From positions 1 through 47,349 of the forward strand of contig JAGVBT010000115.1 of NCBI GenBank assembly GCA_020059605.1: a stretch of 47,349 nt of DNA, in the 5' to 3' direction. The stretch comes from Deltaproteobacteria bacterium (lineage in GTDB: Bacteria > Desulfobacterota > BSN033 > UBA1163). Made by a program: the position numbers and the translations under genes. Numbering within the stretch: position 1 is the stretch's first letter; every line of letters begins with the position of its first letter. This document shows positions 1 through 9,000 of this stretch, piece after piece. The notes under the pieces were generated by a model. That model made no database searches, was not told the DNA's origin, and was given only the letters and a program-made list of their open reading frames with translations.

Positions 1-3000
1 GGACGTCCACGGCCGCCATGACGCCGGGGTCCACATGCATGCCGGCGGCCTTGTCCATGCAGAGGGCCCGCTTGTTCACGATTCGAAACCCGTCCTCCGC
101 GGAATAGACACCGGCCAGGCACAAGGCGGTCAGTTCGCCCAAACTATGGCCGGCCATGGCCACTGGGTGGATACCCAGGGTCGTGAGGTATCGGGCCATG
201 GCGTATTCCATGGTGAACATGGCAGGTTGTTGCCACCGGGTCTTCTGAAGGTTCTCCTCTCGATCATGGAACAATAAGTGAAGGAGGTCGAAGTCCGCTG
301 CAGCTGCAGCCCGATCCATCCACTCCCTGATAACGGGAAAGGACTCGTAGAGATCCCGACCCATTCCGCCATACTGTGACCCCTGTCCGGGAAATACAAA
401 GGCGAACGGCAGGGCTGGCAGATCCTCACAATTCATGAAAATCCCCTGCTGTGTTAGGGACCTCAACACCCTGGGTGAGACAGCTCCGGGTTCGGTAAGG
501 GAGGCCGACCTTTCGATGACTGTGAGCGCCTCCTCTTCGGATTGCTCCATAACGGCCATCCGGTAGTTATGGCCACCCACTTTAGTCCGGAAGAAAGAGA
601 TGCCCTGAACTTCAGGAAGCCCACCACGTGCCTCTCCAGCGGAATTGTGCCCTTCCTTCAAACCCGAAATCCGAAATCCGAAATCCGAAGTGCCCCCCCC
701 CTTCTCTCCAGCGAGACCGGGTTCTCTGTCCGGTGAGACCAGGATCGTATCCAATTCATCCATAGCCTGCTCCACCTGCACAACGTAGTTGGAACCTCCG
801 AACCCGAAGGCATTGACCTGAAGCCTTCTTGGCTCGCCGTTCCTGCCTTTCCAATCAAGCGGCTCCGGGGGGATGAGGAGCCCCGACCCTTCTAAGCCGA
901 TTTCCGGGTCTGGATAGTTATAATTGAGGGTGGGAGGGAAAATCCCAGCTTTCATGGCCATGACTCCTCGAATGAGGCTGTTCATGCCCGAGGCGCCCAG
1001 TGTGTGTCCGATCTGGGATTTGAATGAGGTGATCACGGTGCGATTGGAGGAATTAAAGAACGCCTTCAGGGCGCGGACTTCCTCCACGTCCCCTTGCCGG
1101 GTGCTTGTGGCATGGCATTCCACCAGGTCCACCGCATCGGGGCCATAGGGGATCGCTCGGAATGAGGCGCGGATGGCGATCTCCTGGGTGACACTGGCAG
1201 ACTCCACCATGCCTAAATGGTTGTTGCTCGCTCCCATGCCGGTGACGACGGCGTGGACACACGCTCCTCTTGTACGGGCCAGGCTTTCCCGCTCGATGAC
1301 GATCATTCCCCCCCCCTCGCCGAGAACCATTCCGTCTCTATCAGCATCGAAGGGACGGGAGGTCTCGTAAGCGGGTCTTTCCTGTCCGGACAGTCCGTAA
1401 AGTGCGCCCAGAGCGGAGAATTCCAGAAAATGCAAGTGCGTGAGATTGTCCTCGCCCCCTCCGACAATGGCTGCGTCGATGATCCCGCTCCGGATCATCT
1501 GGATGGCGCTGTGAAGCGCCACCAGTGAGGTTGCGCAGGCTGCGGAGACAGAATAGCTGGGCCCCATGAACCCATACCGGTTGCAGATGAAGCCGGCCGC
1601 TGCGCAGTTGAGCCTGCCCAGGAGTGTGGTGTCGTCAGGGGCCATGCGTCCGGACTTCACCTCCTTTTCGATGGCGCTCTGCTGATCCGGCGTGAGGTGA
1701 ACGGCTCTTTTGACTGCGCCAAGGATATCGTGAACGTACTCCCTGATGATCATATTGGTGAGGGTCCCTGCCGCCTCTCCCGAGTTTTGGGAGATGAGGA
1801 CTCCGATTCGCTCACGCGGGATGTCAGACTCCAAAATGCCGGATGCCCGGATGGCCCTGTCTGCCAACCACATGGTGATCCTTGTCGCCTCGGTCATGGT
1901 CCGGAAATCATGGGGGGGAATCCCGAGTTCATCTCGGGAGATATGGAAGTTTAGGAAGGCGCCTACCTTGCAGTAGGTCTTGTCCGGAACGTACGGCCGG
2001 GGATCATAAAAAAGCGCGTGATCCCACCGCGAAGGCGGAACCAATGTAATCCCGCTCTTCATGGCCAGGCTTGCATCCCATACCTCCTCCGGACTCTTCC
2101 CCAGGGCATTGAGGGTGCTGATCCCGGTGATGGCCACTCTTTCATGATCGTCCCCATGGGGGGCGATTCGCATCCGTCCACGTTCGACCCTGGAGGGTGG
2201 GGTTTCCACGGATAGCGACGCGTTGGGTGGGGGGGCGGGACGATGCAGCAAAAGAGGGCCTTCGGCTATATCGCGGTGAAAGGACCGGAGCTTCTGGACC
2301 TCACGGATGAGGCCGGCGCAGGCCCCGCTCATGAATTGCCCGCGCTCCAGGCAGACCTGCTCATCCAGAGCCACCCCGCCCGGATTGTCCATGCCCCGGG
2401 CCGCAGCGAAGAGGCTCCCCGCAGCCATCTCCTCCAGTCTCGCCCGGAAGGAGAGCTCGTCTTGGTGGCCCGCTGCAAACTCCCTCTCCAGGGATAAAAT
2501 AGCTTCTACTCTCGGAGTCCTCAAGGACCGCACCCGAAGTCCGGTGTCCTGGCCTGAAACGACTGTTCCCCCCGGAAACGATTTCAGAATCATCCCCTGA
2601 TAAAACGCCGTCAAGGCGTCCGTTTCAACGATCTCCCGGGTGGCGAGATAGGCGGTGCCCATCTGGATGGCGTCCGCGCCGAGCATCGCGGCCATGAATG
2701 CAGTCTCCCGATTGAAGATCCCCCCTGCAAGGATCATACGACAGTTTTGGAACAGGGCGGGCTTGCGCCGTTTGAGATCCAACGCCATTTGAGCAAGGGT
2801 GAGCGTGCTATGTTGGCCCACGTGGCCGCCTGCCTCATACCCCTCGCAGACCACGTATCTCACGCCCGCTTCAAGGGCGAGCCTCAACAGCGCCTCGTCA
2901 GGAGCGATATAAATGACCTCCATGCCACGTTCTATCAATTCTCTTAAGGGGGAGAGATCGCCTCCTGCGATCACTACAAAACGGGGCCTGTTTTTCTTTA

Positions 3001-4276
3001 TCCAGGCCAGATGCGTCTCCCTGAAAGGGTTCTCTGCCAAAGAGACGACATTCACTGCATAAGGACGCCCTCTCATAATCTCCGGCAGGCGTCCCAGCTT
3101 CCGGTCAAGGGCCTCCGAGTCCATCAGGCCGAGTGCGATCGTCGGCAATCCACCAGCATCGGCAACCCTTGAGGCAAACTCCGGGACATCTGTGATCCAG
3201 GACATGGCCCCCTGGATAAAGGGGTATTGGGTTCCCATCTCTCTGGCTACAGGGCTGTCCAAAAAGCAATCCTTTTTCGCCTCAGCCAGGTGACATAAGT
3301 TTCGAATCTCGTCCATGAAGACCTTCACGGCCTCCTCGGTTCCGGCCCCAAAACGCTCAACGAACGACCGAGCAAAGGCGGCCTCCACACCGAGAGAGAT
3401 GACTTCGTCCTGCGTGAAATGGCTCTCCAGAGGGGGGAGGGCCATGGCATGCACCTGGTTTGCAAAGGAACGACGGCTTTCTTCCGTGATCTCTGCCCCG
3501 CATAGCGAGTCCTCGAGCGTCTTGATCTCCTTGAACGCGCGAGAGTTTCCCTTGTTGAAAAGGCGACAGGGAACCTGCAGGTCCAGGCCAACCAGATCGG
3601 TGGAATCCGGGCGGAGGTTGGAGAGCCGCTGGCGTTGGAGATCATCAATGGCAACCAGGTCTGTCAACCAATGGACGCTCTCGAAAACGATCCCGGCGGC
3701 CCCTGTGGACAGGAAGGCCGCTGCCGCCTCAGGGGTGGAGACGCCTCCCCAGATGAGGATGTCAAGAGGCTTCGAGGGGGTGCGCAGCATCTCCTTGACC
3801 ACCGAATAGAGAGTTAGGGTCGTCTCACCGCTCACGAATCCGGAGGCCTCGCATCCTTTCAGAACGATGCGCCCAATTCCCGAGCTATCCTTCACAATCG
3901 TTGCCAGGAAATCCAGGTCCCCGGTGATGGGAAAGCAACGGTGGCTTTCCGACAATTCCTTCAATCTCTGCAGAAAGACAGAAGGATCTCCTTGAAAAAA
4001 CTGCGGGTGGCATTCGACCCAGATGTCGTGGGCCCCTGTTTCCTTGAGCAACCGCCCCAAAGATGGATCCATCAAGGCAGGGATAGAAATCTTGATATCC
4101 CTGACGTAGCCGGCAGGGTCGGCCTTTCGTAAGAAAGAACGCAGCCCTTCCGCTCTCATTGCGGAAAAATCGAAGATGGCTCTGCTCCCTGTTCGCTGAG
4201 CCATTTGAATCACCGATGGGATGATCTCCTCATGCCGCCAGACGAAACCGATGATAGGAACCCGATGCTCAGCCAC
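1..4276 (-). CDS. Pfa-like synthase: tandem NMO/PfaD-type barrels, ketosynthase and acyltransferase (3' end outside window)
   Basis: The gene runs off the left edge; 1425 codons are visible with no stop. Residues 1 to about 260 form a first flavin-barrel-like domain with an altered motif (KGCEASGFVSG, Phe147). Residues about 340-640 form a second, intact nitronate-monooxygenase/PfaD-type enoyl reductase barrel (EGYEAGGHVG with His485, then ILAGGIF and GADAIQMGT). A ketosynthase follows from about residue 710, with SAACATS (Cys914), ECHATST (His1055) and KSQIGHT (His1091). An acyltransferase starts near residue 1295 (FPGQGSQYGGMG, GHSLGE with Ser1378) and is cut by the window edge. Known family: PUFA/secondary-lipid (Pfa) synthases condense malonyl units. 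Inference: this protein makes a long-chain or polyunsaturated lipid. The GTG start at 4276 is chosen because GGAGGT lies 8 nt upstream; in-frame ATGs at 4303 and 4345 lack well-placed ribosome sites. It is the third gene of the operon starting at 6342. Domain assignment is firm; the product is unknown. Confidence 0.88.
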   Translation of the reverse strand, partial: MAEHRVPIIGFVWRHEEIIPSVIQMAQRTGSRAIFDFSAMRAEGLRSFLRKADPAGYVRDIKISIPALMDPSLGRLLKETGAHDIWVECHPQFFQGDPSVFLQRLKELSESHRCFPITGDLDFLATIVKDSSGIGRIVLKGCEASGFVSGETTLTLYSVVKEMLRTPSKPLDILIWGGVSTPEAAAAFLSTGAAGIVFESVHWLTDLVAIDDLQRQRLSNLRPDSTDLVGLDLQVPCRLFNKGNSRAFKEIKTLEDSLCGAEITEESRRSFANQVHAMALPPLESHFTQDEVISLGVEAAFARSFVERFGAGTEEAVKVFMDEIRNLCHLAEAKKDCFLDSPVAREMGTQYPFIQGAMSWITDVPEFASRVADAGGLPTIALGLMDSEALDRKLGRLPEIMRGRPYAVNVVSLAENPFRETHLAWIKKNRPRFVVIAGGDLSPLRELIERGMEVIYIAPDEALLRLALEAGVRYVVCEGYEAGGHVGQHSTLTLAQMALDLKRRKPALFQNCRMILAGGIFNRETAFMAAMLGADAIQMGTAYLATREIVETDALTAFYQGMILKSFPGGTVVSGQDTGLRVRSLRTPRVEAILSLEREFAAGHQDELSFRARLEEMAAGSLFAAARGMDNPGGVALDEQVCLERGQFMSGACAGLIREVQKLRSFHRDIAEGPLLLHRPAPPPNASLSVETPPSRVERGRMRIAPHGDDHERVAITGISTLNALGKSPEEVWDASLAMKSGITLVPPSRWDHALFYDPRPYVPDKTYCKVGAFLNFHISRDELGIPPHDFRTMTEATRITMWLADRAIRASGILESDIPRERIGVLISQNSGEAAGTLTNMIIREYVHDILGAVKRAVHLTPDQQSAIEKEVKSGRMAPDDTTLLGRLNCAAAGFICNRYGFMGPSYSVSAACATSLVALHSAIQMIRSGIIDAAIVGGGEDNLTHLHFLEFSALGALYGLSGQERPAYETSRPFDADRDGMVLGEGGGMIVIERESLARTRGACVHAVVTGMGASNNHLGMVESASVTQEIAIRASFRAIPYGPDAVDLVECHATSTRQGDVEEVRALKAFFNSSNRTVITSFKSQIGHTLGASGMNSLIRGVMAMKAGIFPPTLNYNYPDPEIGLEGSGLLIPPEPLDWKGRNGEPRRLQVNAFGFGGSNYVVQVEQAMDELDTILVSPDREPGLAGEKGGGTSDFGFRISGLKEGHNSAGEARGGLPEVQGISFFRTKVGGHNYRMAVMEQSEEEALTVIERSASLTEPGAVSPRVLRSLTQQGIFMNCEDLPALPFAFVFPGQGSQYGGMGRDLYESFPVIREWMDRAAAAADFDLLHLLFHDREENLQKTRWQQPAMFTMEYAMARYLTTLGIHPVAMAGHSLGELTALCLAGVYSAEDGFRIVNKRALCMDKAAGMHVDPGVMAAVDV

Positions 4277-4290: not shown

Positions 4291-4378
4291 GCTTCAACGC
4301 CATACGTTCATCTTTTAATGGAGCCCATTCGCCAGTTGGATCCATCCCGCCCGATACGGCCAAGTATCAGCCCGATCG

Positions 4379-5224
4379 TCACCGCTTCAAACCCAGATAC
4401 GATTCTGTGGTATCACCCCCGATTCTTAACCGGGCAAGCTGGCGCAAATCCACTTCCAGAACGTCGGGTGTGCTGAACTCCAGTATGCGGTATTGGGGAT
4501 CCGTCCAAACTCGCCGCATCCGACCCAAAACCTTCGTTTCCGGCGGCCAGGTGAGGCGAATGCGGTGGATCAGGTTGATGCCCGCGAGCGCCGCTGTTTC
4601 TACCACCATATCGGTGCAGTTGTTGCTCCTCACGCCGAACTGGTCGTACTTCCGGTGCATCACGTATTCATAGATCAATTGATACCGTCGCCGGGTAATC
4701 GGCATTCGCCAGACAAACGTGGGCGGGCGGTTGGGCTTGCCGATCTGAAGTTGGCCATCGGACATCGTCTGCCAAAAATAACCGATAGGATTGGGATCCT
4801 TATGCCGAACCCTCTGAAGCACGCCGACATGGTAACGCGGCTTCGCTTGCCCGAGGTCGCCGGTGTGGCCAAATTCCAGACGATCCTGGGGACTTTCCAG
4901 GATGAGCCAACTATGTCCCCACGGACGCTGCCAAAGTGAGAAGAGAAACGACGTCGTACTGCTGTAGTCCCAATTGCCAGCTTCGTTCAGGATATAGAGG
5001 TAATATCCCACGTCCCCCACGGGCGTTCCGGTGGCGGGATCCAGGTCGGCATCGGGGGCAAAGCGGCACACAATCTCGATGGGCTGGGCGCTCCAGCCAT
5101 CGGGTTGTATCGAAGCGTAGAGCCTGGGCCTTCGATGGGCGCATCTGACCGCAACCCCCGCCAGCCATCTCATCACCACGAGGAGACGGGCTCGATATCC
5201 TCGTTCGGTCGCTTCGCTATTCAT
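4379..5224 (-). CDS. Hypothetical protein, possible permuted NlpC/papain-fold (DUF4105-like)
   Basis: A 281-residue protein not recognised with confidence. Seen: a basic N-terminus with a short hydrophobic stretch (residues about 13-27), a GHSWLILE segment with His104, and an NNCTDMVVETAA segment with Cys203. A histidine in a beta-strand context followed about 100 residues later by an Asn-Cys helix start is the order found in permuted papain-fold proteins such as DUF4105 and YiiX-like families; the fold assignment here is inference. Its ATG overlaps the stop of the upstream acetyltransferase-like gene by 4 nt (ATGA), so the two are translationally coupled. About 100 nt separates its stop from the synthase start. 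If the fold is right it could be a cysteine hydrolase or acyl/amide transferase acting on the lipid product, but nothing in the sequence proves this. Confidence 0.6.
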   Translation of the reverse strand: MNSEATERGYRARLLVVMRWLAGVAVRCAHRRPRLYASIQPDGWSAQPIEIVCRFAPDADLDPATGTPVGDVGYYLYILNEAGNWDYSSTTSFLFSLWQRPWGHSWLILESPQDRLEFGHTGDLGQAKPRYHVGVLQRVRHKDPNPIGYFWQTMSDGQLQIGKPNRPPTFVWRMPITRRRYQLIYEYVMHRKYDQFGVRSNNCTDMVVETAALAGINLIHRIRLTWPPETKVLGRMRRVWTDPQYRILEFSTPDVLEVDLRQLARLRIGGDTTESYLGLKR

Positions 5225-6342
5225 AGGGACTTTCTGAATATACGATATTTCTTATATTTTTTTGCGCCGGCTTCCTCTATCAATGAGTTAATCGATTCAT
5301 TGTCCTCCAGGGTCCAGCCCAACTCCAAATAATGATATTTCTCTTTTTTCCTCACCACCTCATAGATGTGGCGGAAGGCTAACAGGGGGAGTCCCAGTTG
5401 TCGGTATTCCTCCTTGATCCCGAACATCAACAATCGCAATCCGTTGATCTCCCGCCGATACATGAGGAACTTCAGCAAACCCGTCAGACCGATCCGCCCG
5501 TTGAAACGCTTGAGCAAAGGGTTAATGTCAGGAAAGATCACACAGAACGCTGCGGGCTCATCCTCATAATAGATGAAGAAAACTAAGTCCGGATCCACGA
5601 ATTCCATCACGTTCTTTTGAATGTCCCGCATTTCATTGTCGGTCAGGGGGACGAAACCCCAGTTACCAGACCAGGATGCATTGTATATCTCCCTGATCAA
5701 AGCGAACTCAGAGTCCGCATCCTTTGGACGAGAGAGCCTGATGTGGATGCCTTTTTTTTGGGTGATCCGTTCAGCAAGATGATCCATCCACTCGGGAAGC
5801 CGGTAATCGCCATCTATCAGGAAAGCCAGCAGATCCTTTTCTTTGGTGAAGCCGCACGATTCGACCAACCCTGGGTAGTACGGCGGGTTGTAGGCCATCA
5901 TCAAGGTAGGCGGATGATTGAATCCCTCAATGAGCAGCCCCACCTCGTAATTGCTAGACGGGTTGAGCGGGCCTCTCATGAAGGTCATTCCTTTGTGGTG
6001 AACCCACGTCTCCACGGAAGAGAAGAGGGCCGCCGCGGCCTCCGGATCGTCAGCGCATTCGAAAAATCCCCAACTACCCATCTTTTCGCCGTGGAACTGG
6101 TTATAATGGCGATCTATGATGCCCGCGATCCTTCCCACCGTCTCCGAACCGCGTCGGGCCAGAAAGAGGATACGCTCCGAAAACTCCCAGAAAGGGTGTC
6201 GGCGGGGGTCCAATAACCGGCGAACCTCCTTTTTAAGAGGGGGGATCCAGTTGGGATACTCAGCATAGATCTTCCATGGAAGGTCGATGAAGTCCTTTAA
6301 TTCCGATCCCCCTTCCACAGTAATGATCTCCATGCCGGCCAT
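5221..6342 (-). CDS. GNAT-like N-acetyltransferase family protein (~373 aa)
   Basis: A 373-residue soluble protein resembling a GNAT-like family common in anaerobic Proteobacteria. Seen: the N-terminal WKIYAEYPNWIPPL motif with KEVRRLLDP, typical of this group, then FLARRGSETVGRIAGIID, which looks like the beta-strands preceding the acyl-CoA site, and a C-terminal acyltransferase-like half with MFGIKEEYRQLGLPLLAF. It lacks an obvious textbook R/Q-x-x-G-x-G/A loop, so the substrate and even activity are uncertain. It is the first gene of the minus-strand operon and overlaps the next gene by 4 nt. The start could be the ATG at 6342 or the in-frame ATG at 6333; neither has a strong ribosome site. 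A palindromic operator candidate lies about 100 nt upstream. Inference: it may modify the synthase's lipid product. Confidence 0.7.
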   Translation of the reverse strand: MAGMEIITVEGGSELKDFIDLPWKIYAEYPNWIPPLKKEVRRLLDPRRHPFWEFSERILFLARRGSETVGRIAGIIDRHYNQFHGEKMGSWGFFECADDPEAAAALFSSVETWVHHKGMTFMRGPLNPSSNYEVGLLIEGFNHPPTLMMAYNPPYYPGLVESCGFTKEKDLLAFLIDGDYRLPEWMDHLAERITQKKGIHIRLSRPKDADSEFALIREIYNASWSGNWGFVPLTDNEMRDIQKNVMEFVDPDLVFFIYYEDEPAAFCVIFPDINPLLKRFNGRIGLTGLLKFLMYRREINGLRLLMFGIKEEYRQLGLPLLAFRHIYEVVRKKEKYHYLELGWTLEDNESINSLIEEAGAKKYKKYRIFRKSL

Positions 6343-8186: not shown

Positions 8187-8271
8187 GGGATGGAATTTCG
8201 GATTGGTTCAGATGTAAGAAAAAGGGCGAGTAGCAATGCTAAAAACTCCTTGCATCAGGGGAGGCAACGAT

Positions 8272-9000
8272 ATGAGCTCTGAAGGACATTCCGTGCACTA
8301 CGGCATTGAGCAACATGGAATAAAGAATGTGGGAAGGGTTTTTGGGACCCCGTCCACTCCGGTGCTCTATGAGGAGATTGTGCGAAGAAGGGAAGGATTA
8401 ATCTCTCACTTGGGGCCGATTGTCGTGCGAACGGGACATTATACCGGCCGCTCTCCCAACGACAAGCAAATTGTTCGGGAAGCTTCAAGCGAAGAGAAGA
8501 TCTGGTGGGGATCTGTCAATGTTCCCATGGAGCCAACCAAGTTTGATATGCTCCATTCGAGATTACTCGCCTATTTACAAGGCAGGGATCTTTTTATCCA
8601 GGATTGTTTTGTCGGGGCAGACCCTGTCCGCCGGATTCCCATTCACATCATCACGGAATATGCATGGCATAGCCTCTTTGCCAGAAACATGTTTATCCAG
8701 ATCAAGGAGAGAAGCCAGCTGATCAATCATATCCCTCAGTTCACGGTGATCAACACCCCCAGATTCCATGCCCTCCCCGAGCCTGATGGGACCAATTCGG
8801 AAGCCTATATCATCGTCAATTTCGGGAAGAGACTGATCTTGATCGGCGGCACCAGTTCCCCGCGATATTCTGGTGTCAGGCCCAAGGGCTTCCGAGCATT
8901 CCCCGAGGAAAAGTTAACCTTCGTAAGAACCATTCGATTCCGGTCGGCAAGGAAAGAGGGGTCGGCCTGTTTTATTTATCGACAGCTGTTTCTTTCCTGA
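8272..9000 (+). pseudogene. pckA: Truncated ATP-dependent phosphoenolpyruvate carboxykinase (N-terminal domain only)
   Basis: About 200 residues align by motif with ATP-type PEPCK: TGRSPNDKQIV, the substrate-binding segment FVGADPVRRIP, TEYAWHSLFARNMFI, and FGKRLILIGGTS. Normal PckA is about 530 residues; this reading frame stops after 242. Similarity ends right after IGGTS (about 8860). The nucleotide-binding half, with the GxxGxGKT P-loop and the metal ligands, is absent and is not found downstream in any frame I followed. The last 45 residues (encoded from about 8866) look like unrelated sequence read through to a stop. The start at 8272 has a good site (GGGGAGG). The end overlaps the convergent gene at 8972 by 29 nt. 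It cannot make an active enzyme; a deletion or rearrangement fused its 5' half to foreign DNA. Confidence 0.85.

Follow-up and report, generated by a model that had tools for sequence, protein, structure and literature searches.

Tandem FabK/NMO-fold barrels, the first apparently redox-dead, at the start of a large bacterial synthase

Introduction

In modular polyketide synthases (PKSs) and animal fatty acid synthase, the structural subdomain of the ketoreductase (KR) and the double-hotdog dehydratase (DH) place a degenerate or second half beside an active half in one chain. Here we describe a tandem of other folds, two triosephosphate isomerase (TIM) barrels that open a synthase encoded by the first gene of a 47,349-nucleotide stretch of DNA from a Deltaproteobacteria bacterium (contig JAGVBT010000115.1, positions 1 to 47,349; the window). 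Its second barrel (barrel 2) has the features of a complete FabK-like enoyl reductase (ER) dependent on flavin mononucleotide (FMN), its first (barrel 1) appears redox-dead, and we consider it likely that barrel 1 is a built-in partner of barrel 2 within an intramolecular pseudodimer.

The nearest fold of both barrels is FabK (PDB 2z6i, 5gvh and 9pl0), whose motif I, GGH loop and phosphate-binding Gly-Thr are found in barrel 2. FabK is a free-standing homodimer, however, whereas the barrels of the window share a chain with a ketosynthase (KS), acyltransferase (AT), acyl carrier protein (ACP), KR and DH, and one of them appears redox-dead. The thraustochytrid polyunsaturated fatty acid (PUFA) synthase resembles the tandem in that two TIM-barrel ERs, ERb and ERc, heterodimerise and one is unstable alone (PDB 9SDD, PMC13311796). 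ERb is insoluble and FMN-free unless co-produced with ERc; ERc alone is soluble, FMN-bound and mainly a homodimer with some monomer. Unlike the tandem, these ERs are PfaD-like, lie on two polypeptides and both have FMN and the His. The same source states that TIM-barrel ERs need dimerisation for activity, and in its ER structure FMN is contacted by the Gly-Thr pair, both GG glycines, the GGH-loop Gly and motif-I residues.

PfaD and the ERs of trans-AT PKSs (PDB 4yx6, 6lkc, 4z38 and 4cw5) are likewise TIM-barrel ERs serving a PKS-like synthase, but they are less similar to barrel 2 (template modelling (TM) score 0.46-0.60; PfaD profile E 7e-4) and are separate proteins or AT-ER proteins (PMC13311796). 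An earlier note on this DNA had taken such reductases to be single and separate, a view not supported by the thraustochytrid ERs, which are fused and present twice (PMC13311796). The excerpt of Shulse and Allen 2011 (PMC3098273) describes secondary lipid synthase types with single ER (pfaD) genes and mentions no doubled ER. Among the papers listed by a literature search that mostly did not extend to subscription journals, none describes FabK-like barrels in tandem whose first copy is dead, or an FMN ER with a degenerate half.

Results

The synthase gene and its domain order

The synthase gene lies on the minus strand as an open frame of 1425 codons running from a GTG at 4276 to base 2. An in-frame TTG at 4363 is an alternative start, but the start at 4276 is likely because in at least 10 relatives no more than 6-8 codons separate residue 1 from a preceding stop. 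The gene runs past base 1 of the window, and an exact overlap of 31 residues joins it to a second contig of the same genome (G000, contig C78), where it continues as a 1284-residue frame holding the end of the AT, one ACP, the KR and the DH (locus L009, 16390 down to 12536). The domain order is thus barrel 1, barrel 2, KS, AT, ACP, KR and DH. The parts encoded in the window are as follows.

3257..4276, minus strand: barrel 1 with its lid or linker, residues 1-340 (barrel proper about 8-219); AlphaFold2 model, Foldseek match to FabK
3827..3865, minus strand: motif-III loop of barrel 1, residues 138-150, with Phe147 replacing the catalytic His; alignment rows
3743..3751, minus strand: WGG of barrel 1 (176-178), retained Gly-Gly strand end; W176 80/80, G177 80/80, G178 72/80
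3659..3685, minus strand: FESVHWLTD of barrel 1 (198-206), Glu199-Ser200 replacing the phosphate-binding Gly-Thr; alignment rows
2207..3256, minus strand: barrel 2, resembling a FabK-like FMN enoyl reductase, residues 341-690; Foldseek, profile, Pfam NMO (nitronate monooxygenase)
3203..3223, minus strand: motif I of barrel 2, PFIQGAM (352-358); Q, G and M each in 80/80 rows
2816..2845, minus strand: motif III of barrel 2, EGYEAGGHVG (478-487), with catalytic-type His485; His in 79/79 rows not gapped at this position
2654..2668, minus strand: IQMGT of barrel 2 (537-541), phosphate-binding Gly-Thr; G540 79/79, T541 78/79
764..2143, minus strand: ketosynthase, residues about 712-1171, Cys in SAACATS; Pfam ketoacyl-synt E 3.2e-50, motif positions
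2..406, minus strand: N-terminal part of the acyltransferase (1291-1425), ending at the contig edge; Pfam

The synthase, a large bacterial enzyme, probably makes lipid chains. The 1425 residues in the window, about half of the protein, score 244.8 bits with the PfaA-type PUFA synthase model TIGR02813 (cut-off 1010.1) and 326.1 bits with the PKS_plus_SDR model NF045894 (cut-off 1740). Uncut and unbroken frames of relatives mostly span about 2530-2760 residues in the order barrel 1, barrel 2, KS, AT, and in one of them, L043, the full order through the DH was checked with Pfam.

Barrel 1 is a predicted TIM barrel of the FabK/NMO fold

That the synthase begins with two barrels in tandem, as the earlier note had proposed, is borne out by profile comparison and by the predicted folds. 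The AlphaFold2 model of barrel 1, built from 61 aligned rows, is confident (predicted local distance difference test (pLDDT) 91.9, predicted TM score (pTM) 0.91) and has eight beta-alpha units, with strands at 8-14, 32-36, 60-63, 84-88, 113-118, 136-139, 172-176 and 195-198 and a helix after each. Its best Foldseek match is FabK 9pl0 (E 5.9e-14, TM 0.68 to the query and 0.73 to the target, root-mean-square deviation (rmsd) 4.9, 17% identity). Foldseek returned 426 matches at E 0.001 or better, the best 50 of which are all FabK, nitronate- or nitroalkane-oxidising enzymes, PA1024, PfaD, trans-AT ERs or FabX. Searched against the PDB, the sequence profile of barrel 1 matches FabK (E 1.4e-6). The Pfam NMO model gives barrel 1 of the window 13.6 bits, below its cut-off of 28, but 19 of the 61 rows score E 0.1 or better (down to 4.3e-5), and in two proteins of a second family (family B, below) the best NMO stretch falls in barrel 1.

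The two barrels resemble each other most clearly at the profile level (E 5.9e-7, probability 92%, 165 columns). The pairwise signal is weak, since BLASTP between barrels 1 and 2, leaving aside ten residues common to both pieces, gave a best match of only E 1.4. A Smith-Waterman comparison of residues 1-260 with 331-650 scored 67, against 33 ± 5 for shuffled sequences (0/1000 as high); its alignment spans residues 131-213, in the latter half of the barrel.

Barrel 1 has lost redox residues and keeps invariant residues of its own

Residue counts refer to 80 rows, namely the window and 79 of 80 relatives found in GTDB contigs (family A); L069 was omitted, its frame being broken. The motifs KGCEASGFVSG with Phe147 and EGYEAGGHVG with His485, and the paired GGV and GGI strands, lie where the earlier note had placed them. 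At position 147 barrel 1 has Phe in 70 rows, Leu in seven and Tyr, Trp or Val in one each, with His in 0/80, whereas the catalytic His of barrel 2 is present in 79/79. Position 140 is Lys in 80/80 against Glu478 in barrel 2, and position 199 is Glu in 80/80 against Gly in barrel 2, followed by Ser200 in 78/80. The first strand reads IGFVWRHE, with no QGxM and the motif-I Met gone. By motif alignment, barrel 1 retains of the FMN-contacting residues only the GG pair (177 in 80/80, 178 in 72/80); the Gly of the GGH loop is Ser, Ala or, rarely, Gly. The free-standing rows were chosen by their GGH motif and so give no control for how often the His is lost.

These losses fit a barrel without the catalytic and most of the flavin-binding residues, redox-dead and, judging from its residues, probably unable to bind FMN. 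They rule out two working reductases as far as barrel 1 is concerned.

Eleven residues are nevertheless invariant in 80/80 rows (K140, E143, G146, W176, G177, E199, H202, W203, R238, G243 and N244). When the barrel faces are assigned solely by where strands and helices end, positions with at least 95% conservation are concentrated in the loops that follow the strands, on the active-site side (14/69, against 10/143 elsewhere in the barrel; Fisher p 0.009), and the polar residues and Trp among them number 11 in these loops, none in the opposite loops and one each in a strand and a helix. The active-site face of barrel 2 is conserved too (24/51). Mean identity to the window is 0.56 for barrel 1 and 0.72 for barrel 2, so that barrel 1 is the less conserved of the two, but because it has invariant residues of its own we regard it as kept rather than decaying. 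The earlier note's view of the first barrel as dead therefore holds for redox chemistry and, beyond that, is at odds with these residues; neither of the two outcomes that the note had named as refuting it occurred, since the flavin site is not intact by residues and a TIM barrel is the fold predicted, with high confidence.

Barrel 2 looks like an intact FabK-like reductase

Barrel 2 carries the FabK-like signature throughout (M358 80/80, H485 79/79, G540 79/79, T541 78/79) and looks like an intact FabK-like FMN enoyl reductase that, going by these residues, is presumably active. Foldseek places it on FabK 2z6i (TM 0.88, rmsd 2.0, 27% identity), its profile reaches Thermotoga maritima FabK at E 4.2e-45 against E 7e-4 for PfaD, and Pfam NMO gives the window protein 83.3 bits (cut-off 28) with its best stretch at 422-608, in barrel 2. 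We call it FabK-like rather than FabK because the NCBIfam FabK equivalog TIGR03151 scores 145.3 bits, below the cut-off of 453.1. A PfaD-type assignment was rejected (TIGR02814 23.0 against a cut-off of 449.25 bits; TM 0.46-0.54 to PfaD against 0.88 to FabK), and the earlier note's comparison with PfaD is not supported for either barrel, both being nearest FabK.

The architecture recurs in other genomes and in a second synthase family

The same architecture in other genomes, for which the earlier note had suggested a search, was found. Searches of GTDB contigs passed 81 relatives, of which 80 were kept, and in the same frame barrel 1 is followed by barrel 2 in 79/80 and by the KS in 73/80, the remainder being contig ends or broken frames. 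Among genomes drawn from the phylum, barrel 1 was found at E < 1e-60 at 16 places in 14/395 genomes, which together with the 80 loci rules out an oddity of one genome. It occurs in 2/23 genomes of the class, and in 0/9 other genomes of the genus and 0/7 further genomes of the family. The distribution of the barrel-1 synthase is patchy. Record names of the relatives include Thermodesulfobacteriota, Nitrospirota, Verrucomicrobiota, Acidobacteriota and others, nearly all metagenome bins; records named "Deltaproteobacteria bacterium" are labelled Myxococcota, a phylum label that was not trusted. A search of viral contigs gave no relative. The locus sets are not independent: several GTDB loci, L102 and L043 for example, are contigs already represented among the loci from the phylum genomes, and two loci each come from at least four genomes.

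Family B has the same two barrels ahead of a KS, in frames of 2466 to 3734 residues among the matches listed. The first barrels of the two families are homologous (hhalign 99.6%, 314 columns), the His is absent from all 11 family-B/C rows read (Arg in five, Trp in four, Lys and Phe in one each), and Lys or Arg at 140 with Glu or Asp at 199 is found in 24/24 rows of both families. Among the matches listed, a search with barrel 2 reached at least 28 places in open frames of at least 900 residues, 27 of them with barrel 1 ahead (in two only in part, at contig ends); at the remaining place (G375:C452) the contig begins inside barrel 2.

A branch with support 100 in a quick tree of 71 barrels has every barrel-1 row on the same side, and barrel 2 of the two families groups together with support 99; because of these groupings, one two-barrel ancestor most likely predates the split of families A and B. 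The approximately unbiased (AU) test does not reject a single clade of both barrels (p-AU 0.635), barrel 1 sits on a long branch, and a tandem duplication is a possible origin of the pair on this sequence comparison. Family-B barrel 1 is not one clade in the quick trees, although a single clade is not rejected either (p-AU 0.568). All trees are of the quick type, with SH-aLRT (approximate likelihood-ratio test) support only and 14/80 family-A rows; the p-AU tree left out two L207 rows and L029_solo (the same gene as L062_b2B). The alignments held the window with 60/79 loci (A3), 35/74 (A4) or 55/74 (A5).

Several loci depart from the common pattern. L207 (10595-13408) has a third, very divergent version with IRGNEAGGFCG in barrel 1 and EGRGSGGHVG in barrel 2, then a KS to the contig end. 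The family-B protein of L060 (4821-15560) has 3580 residues; its two barrels and KS-AT are followed by another KS-like part, ACPs, KR and DH, and it ends in a domain resembling a phosphopantetheinyl transferase (PPTase). In L067, L068, L070, L092 and L069 (G375:C143) the synthase lies in several frames or contains stops at differing places, from decay or assembly error. The synthase is missing from the 16 other family genomes searched, whereas other classes and phyla do have it, a hint of gene transfer.

Discussion

A probable built-in, redox-dead partner for barrel 2

On the reading that we favour, and hold to be likely, barrel 1 is a built-in redox-dead partner of an active barrel 2. It would be an old barrel of the same fold without the catalytic His, the motif-I Met and the phosphate-binding Gly-Thr, packing on barrel 2 in the same chain and thereby replacing the second subunit of the dimer of free reductases. 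Barrel 2, dependent on FMN and NAD(P)H, would saturate the chain after the KR and DH have acted, and in the emptied flavin site of barrel 1 Lys140 and the acid at 199 might form a pair or bind some other ligand. We propose this role because TIM-barrel ERs work as dimers, because ERb needs ERc, and because the FabK-related GbnE, once its His is mutated to Val, reduces nothing (PMC10921412). By this analogy, barrel 2 would need its contact with barrel 1.

An AlphaFold2 model of both barrels (690 residues) forms one rigid unit with pTM 0.93, which we take as a fixed arrangement because loosely placed halves would be expected to score less. The earlier note's suggestion of a structural dimer half accordingly gains a confident single arrangement, while the further step, that the contact between the barrels corresponds to the FabK-like dimer contact, would be a reading of this model.

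Four points weigh against this reading. The GbnE His mutant still held FMN (PMC10921412), so that loss of the His does not by itself mean loss of flavin; barrel 1 conserves more polar residues on its active-site face than a purely structural half would seem to need; its Foldseek fit is moderate (TM to the query 0.52-0.69, rmsd at least 4.3, for the best 50 of the 426 matches); and AlphaFold2 may set homologous domains in a dimer-like arrangement from its training.

If the pseudodimer is real, it would account for the accommodation of a dimer-dependent TIM-barrel reductase within one chain, and FMN enoyl reductases would share, in two families of large synthases, the degenerate-half solution of the KR and DH of type I synthases. 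The tandem also draws attention to barrel 1 as a conserved domain that in the window protein falls under the Pfam cut-off.

Other possible roles for barrel 1

The conserved active-site face raises a tentative possibility, namely that barrel 1 is a flavin-free TIM barrel in which a charged Lys-acid pocket has taken the place of the FMN site, with a ligand or reaction of its own on the ACP-bound chain, next to the active reductase within the fused pseudodimer. In a more specific form, which we think rather unlikely although it is compatible with the pseudodimer, the barrel would be re-tooled to bind or convert an acyl or phosphopantetheine ligand. The eleven invariant residues and their enrichment in the active-site-end loops speak for a site, as does the retention in nine family-B rows of D36 (one Asn), a basic residue at 140, E143, an acidic residue at 199 and R238. 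Family B, however, rarely keeps W176 (1/9) or W203 (1/9) and never H202 or N244 (0/9), and so the two families have no whole catalytic set in common; part of the pattern may be inherited, as the active-site face of barrel 2 is conserved as well; and among the matches listed nothing outside the FabK/NMO group matched barrel 1 better. The idea that Lys140, where strand 6 ends, forms a Schiff base as in class I aldolases was set aside, since the position is Arg in 2/9 family-B rows, which speaks against such chemistry in that family. A ligand in the barrel-1 pocket would be a new part of chain assembly, and a reaction or ligand of its own would make barrel 1 a second, unrecognised functional domain in widespread large lipid-type synthases.

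Somewhat more doubtful is a role in programming or docking, in which barrel 1 would hold the ACP or the chain and steer iteration of the KS without chemistry. GbnE suppresses module iteration through association even when catalytically inactive (PMC10921412), and KS, AT and ACP share a chain with barrel 1, but no ACP site is known in barrel 1, no search for one having been made.

It is very improbable that barrel 1 has no role and is merely a pseudo-domain, recent or in decay: its catalytic and flavin residues are gone and it is less conserved than barrel 2, but it has eleven residues invariant in 80 rows, is old (the barrel-1 rows of both families lying on one side of a fully supported branch) and is present in 27/28 of the long frames reached through barrel 2 among the matches listed, its presence in all 80 loci being no evidence here since these were found with barrel 1.

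Gene neighbourhood

Two genes without a family match lie upstream of the synthase in the window.

4379..5224, minus strand: 281-residue gene; in 15/80 family-A loci, upstream in 14 and downstream in one
5221..6342, minus strand: 373-residue gene, resembling a GCN5-related N-acetyltransferase (GNAT) by eye only; in 44/80 family-A loci

The 373-residue gene overlaps the adjoining gene by 4 bases and is upstream and on the same strand in 25/25 loci listed of the 44. A PPTase match occurs in 39/80 loci and is downstream in 25/25 listed. An exporter ATPase is present in 21/80 loci (16 with at least 75% identity and five weak matches), an exporter permease in 15/80 and a FemAB-like gene in 8/80. These counts come from contigs many of which are too short for both sides, 60/80 loci having 2.2 kb upstream and 43/80 having 9.5 kb downstream. 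With these neighbours the locus has the appearance of an operon for assembling and exporting a lipid-like product.

On contig C78 a gene for a B12-binding radical S-adenosylmethionine (SAM) protein (L009 6943-8304, minus strand) adjoins the exporter permease, with matches in 6/80 loci at 30% identity or less. Elsewhere in the window, a 254-residue frame at 8236-9000 (plus strand) covers only positions 4-174 of the 465 of an ATP-dependent phosphoenolpyruvate (PEP) carboxykinase and seems short or interrupted.

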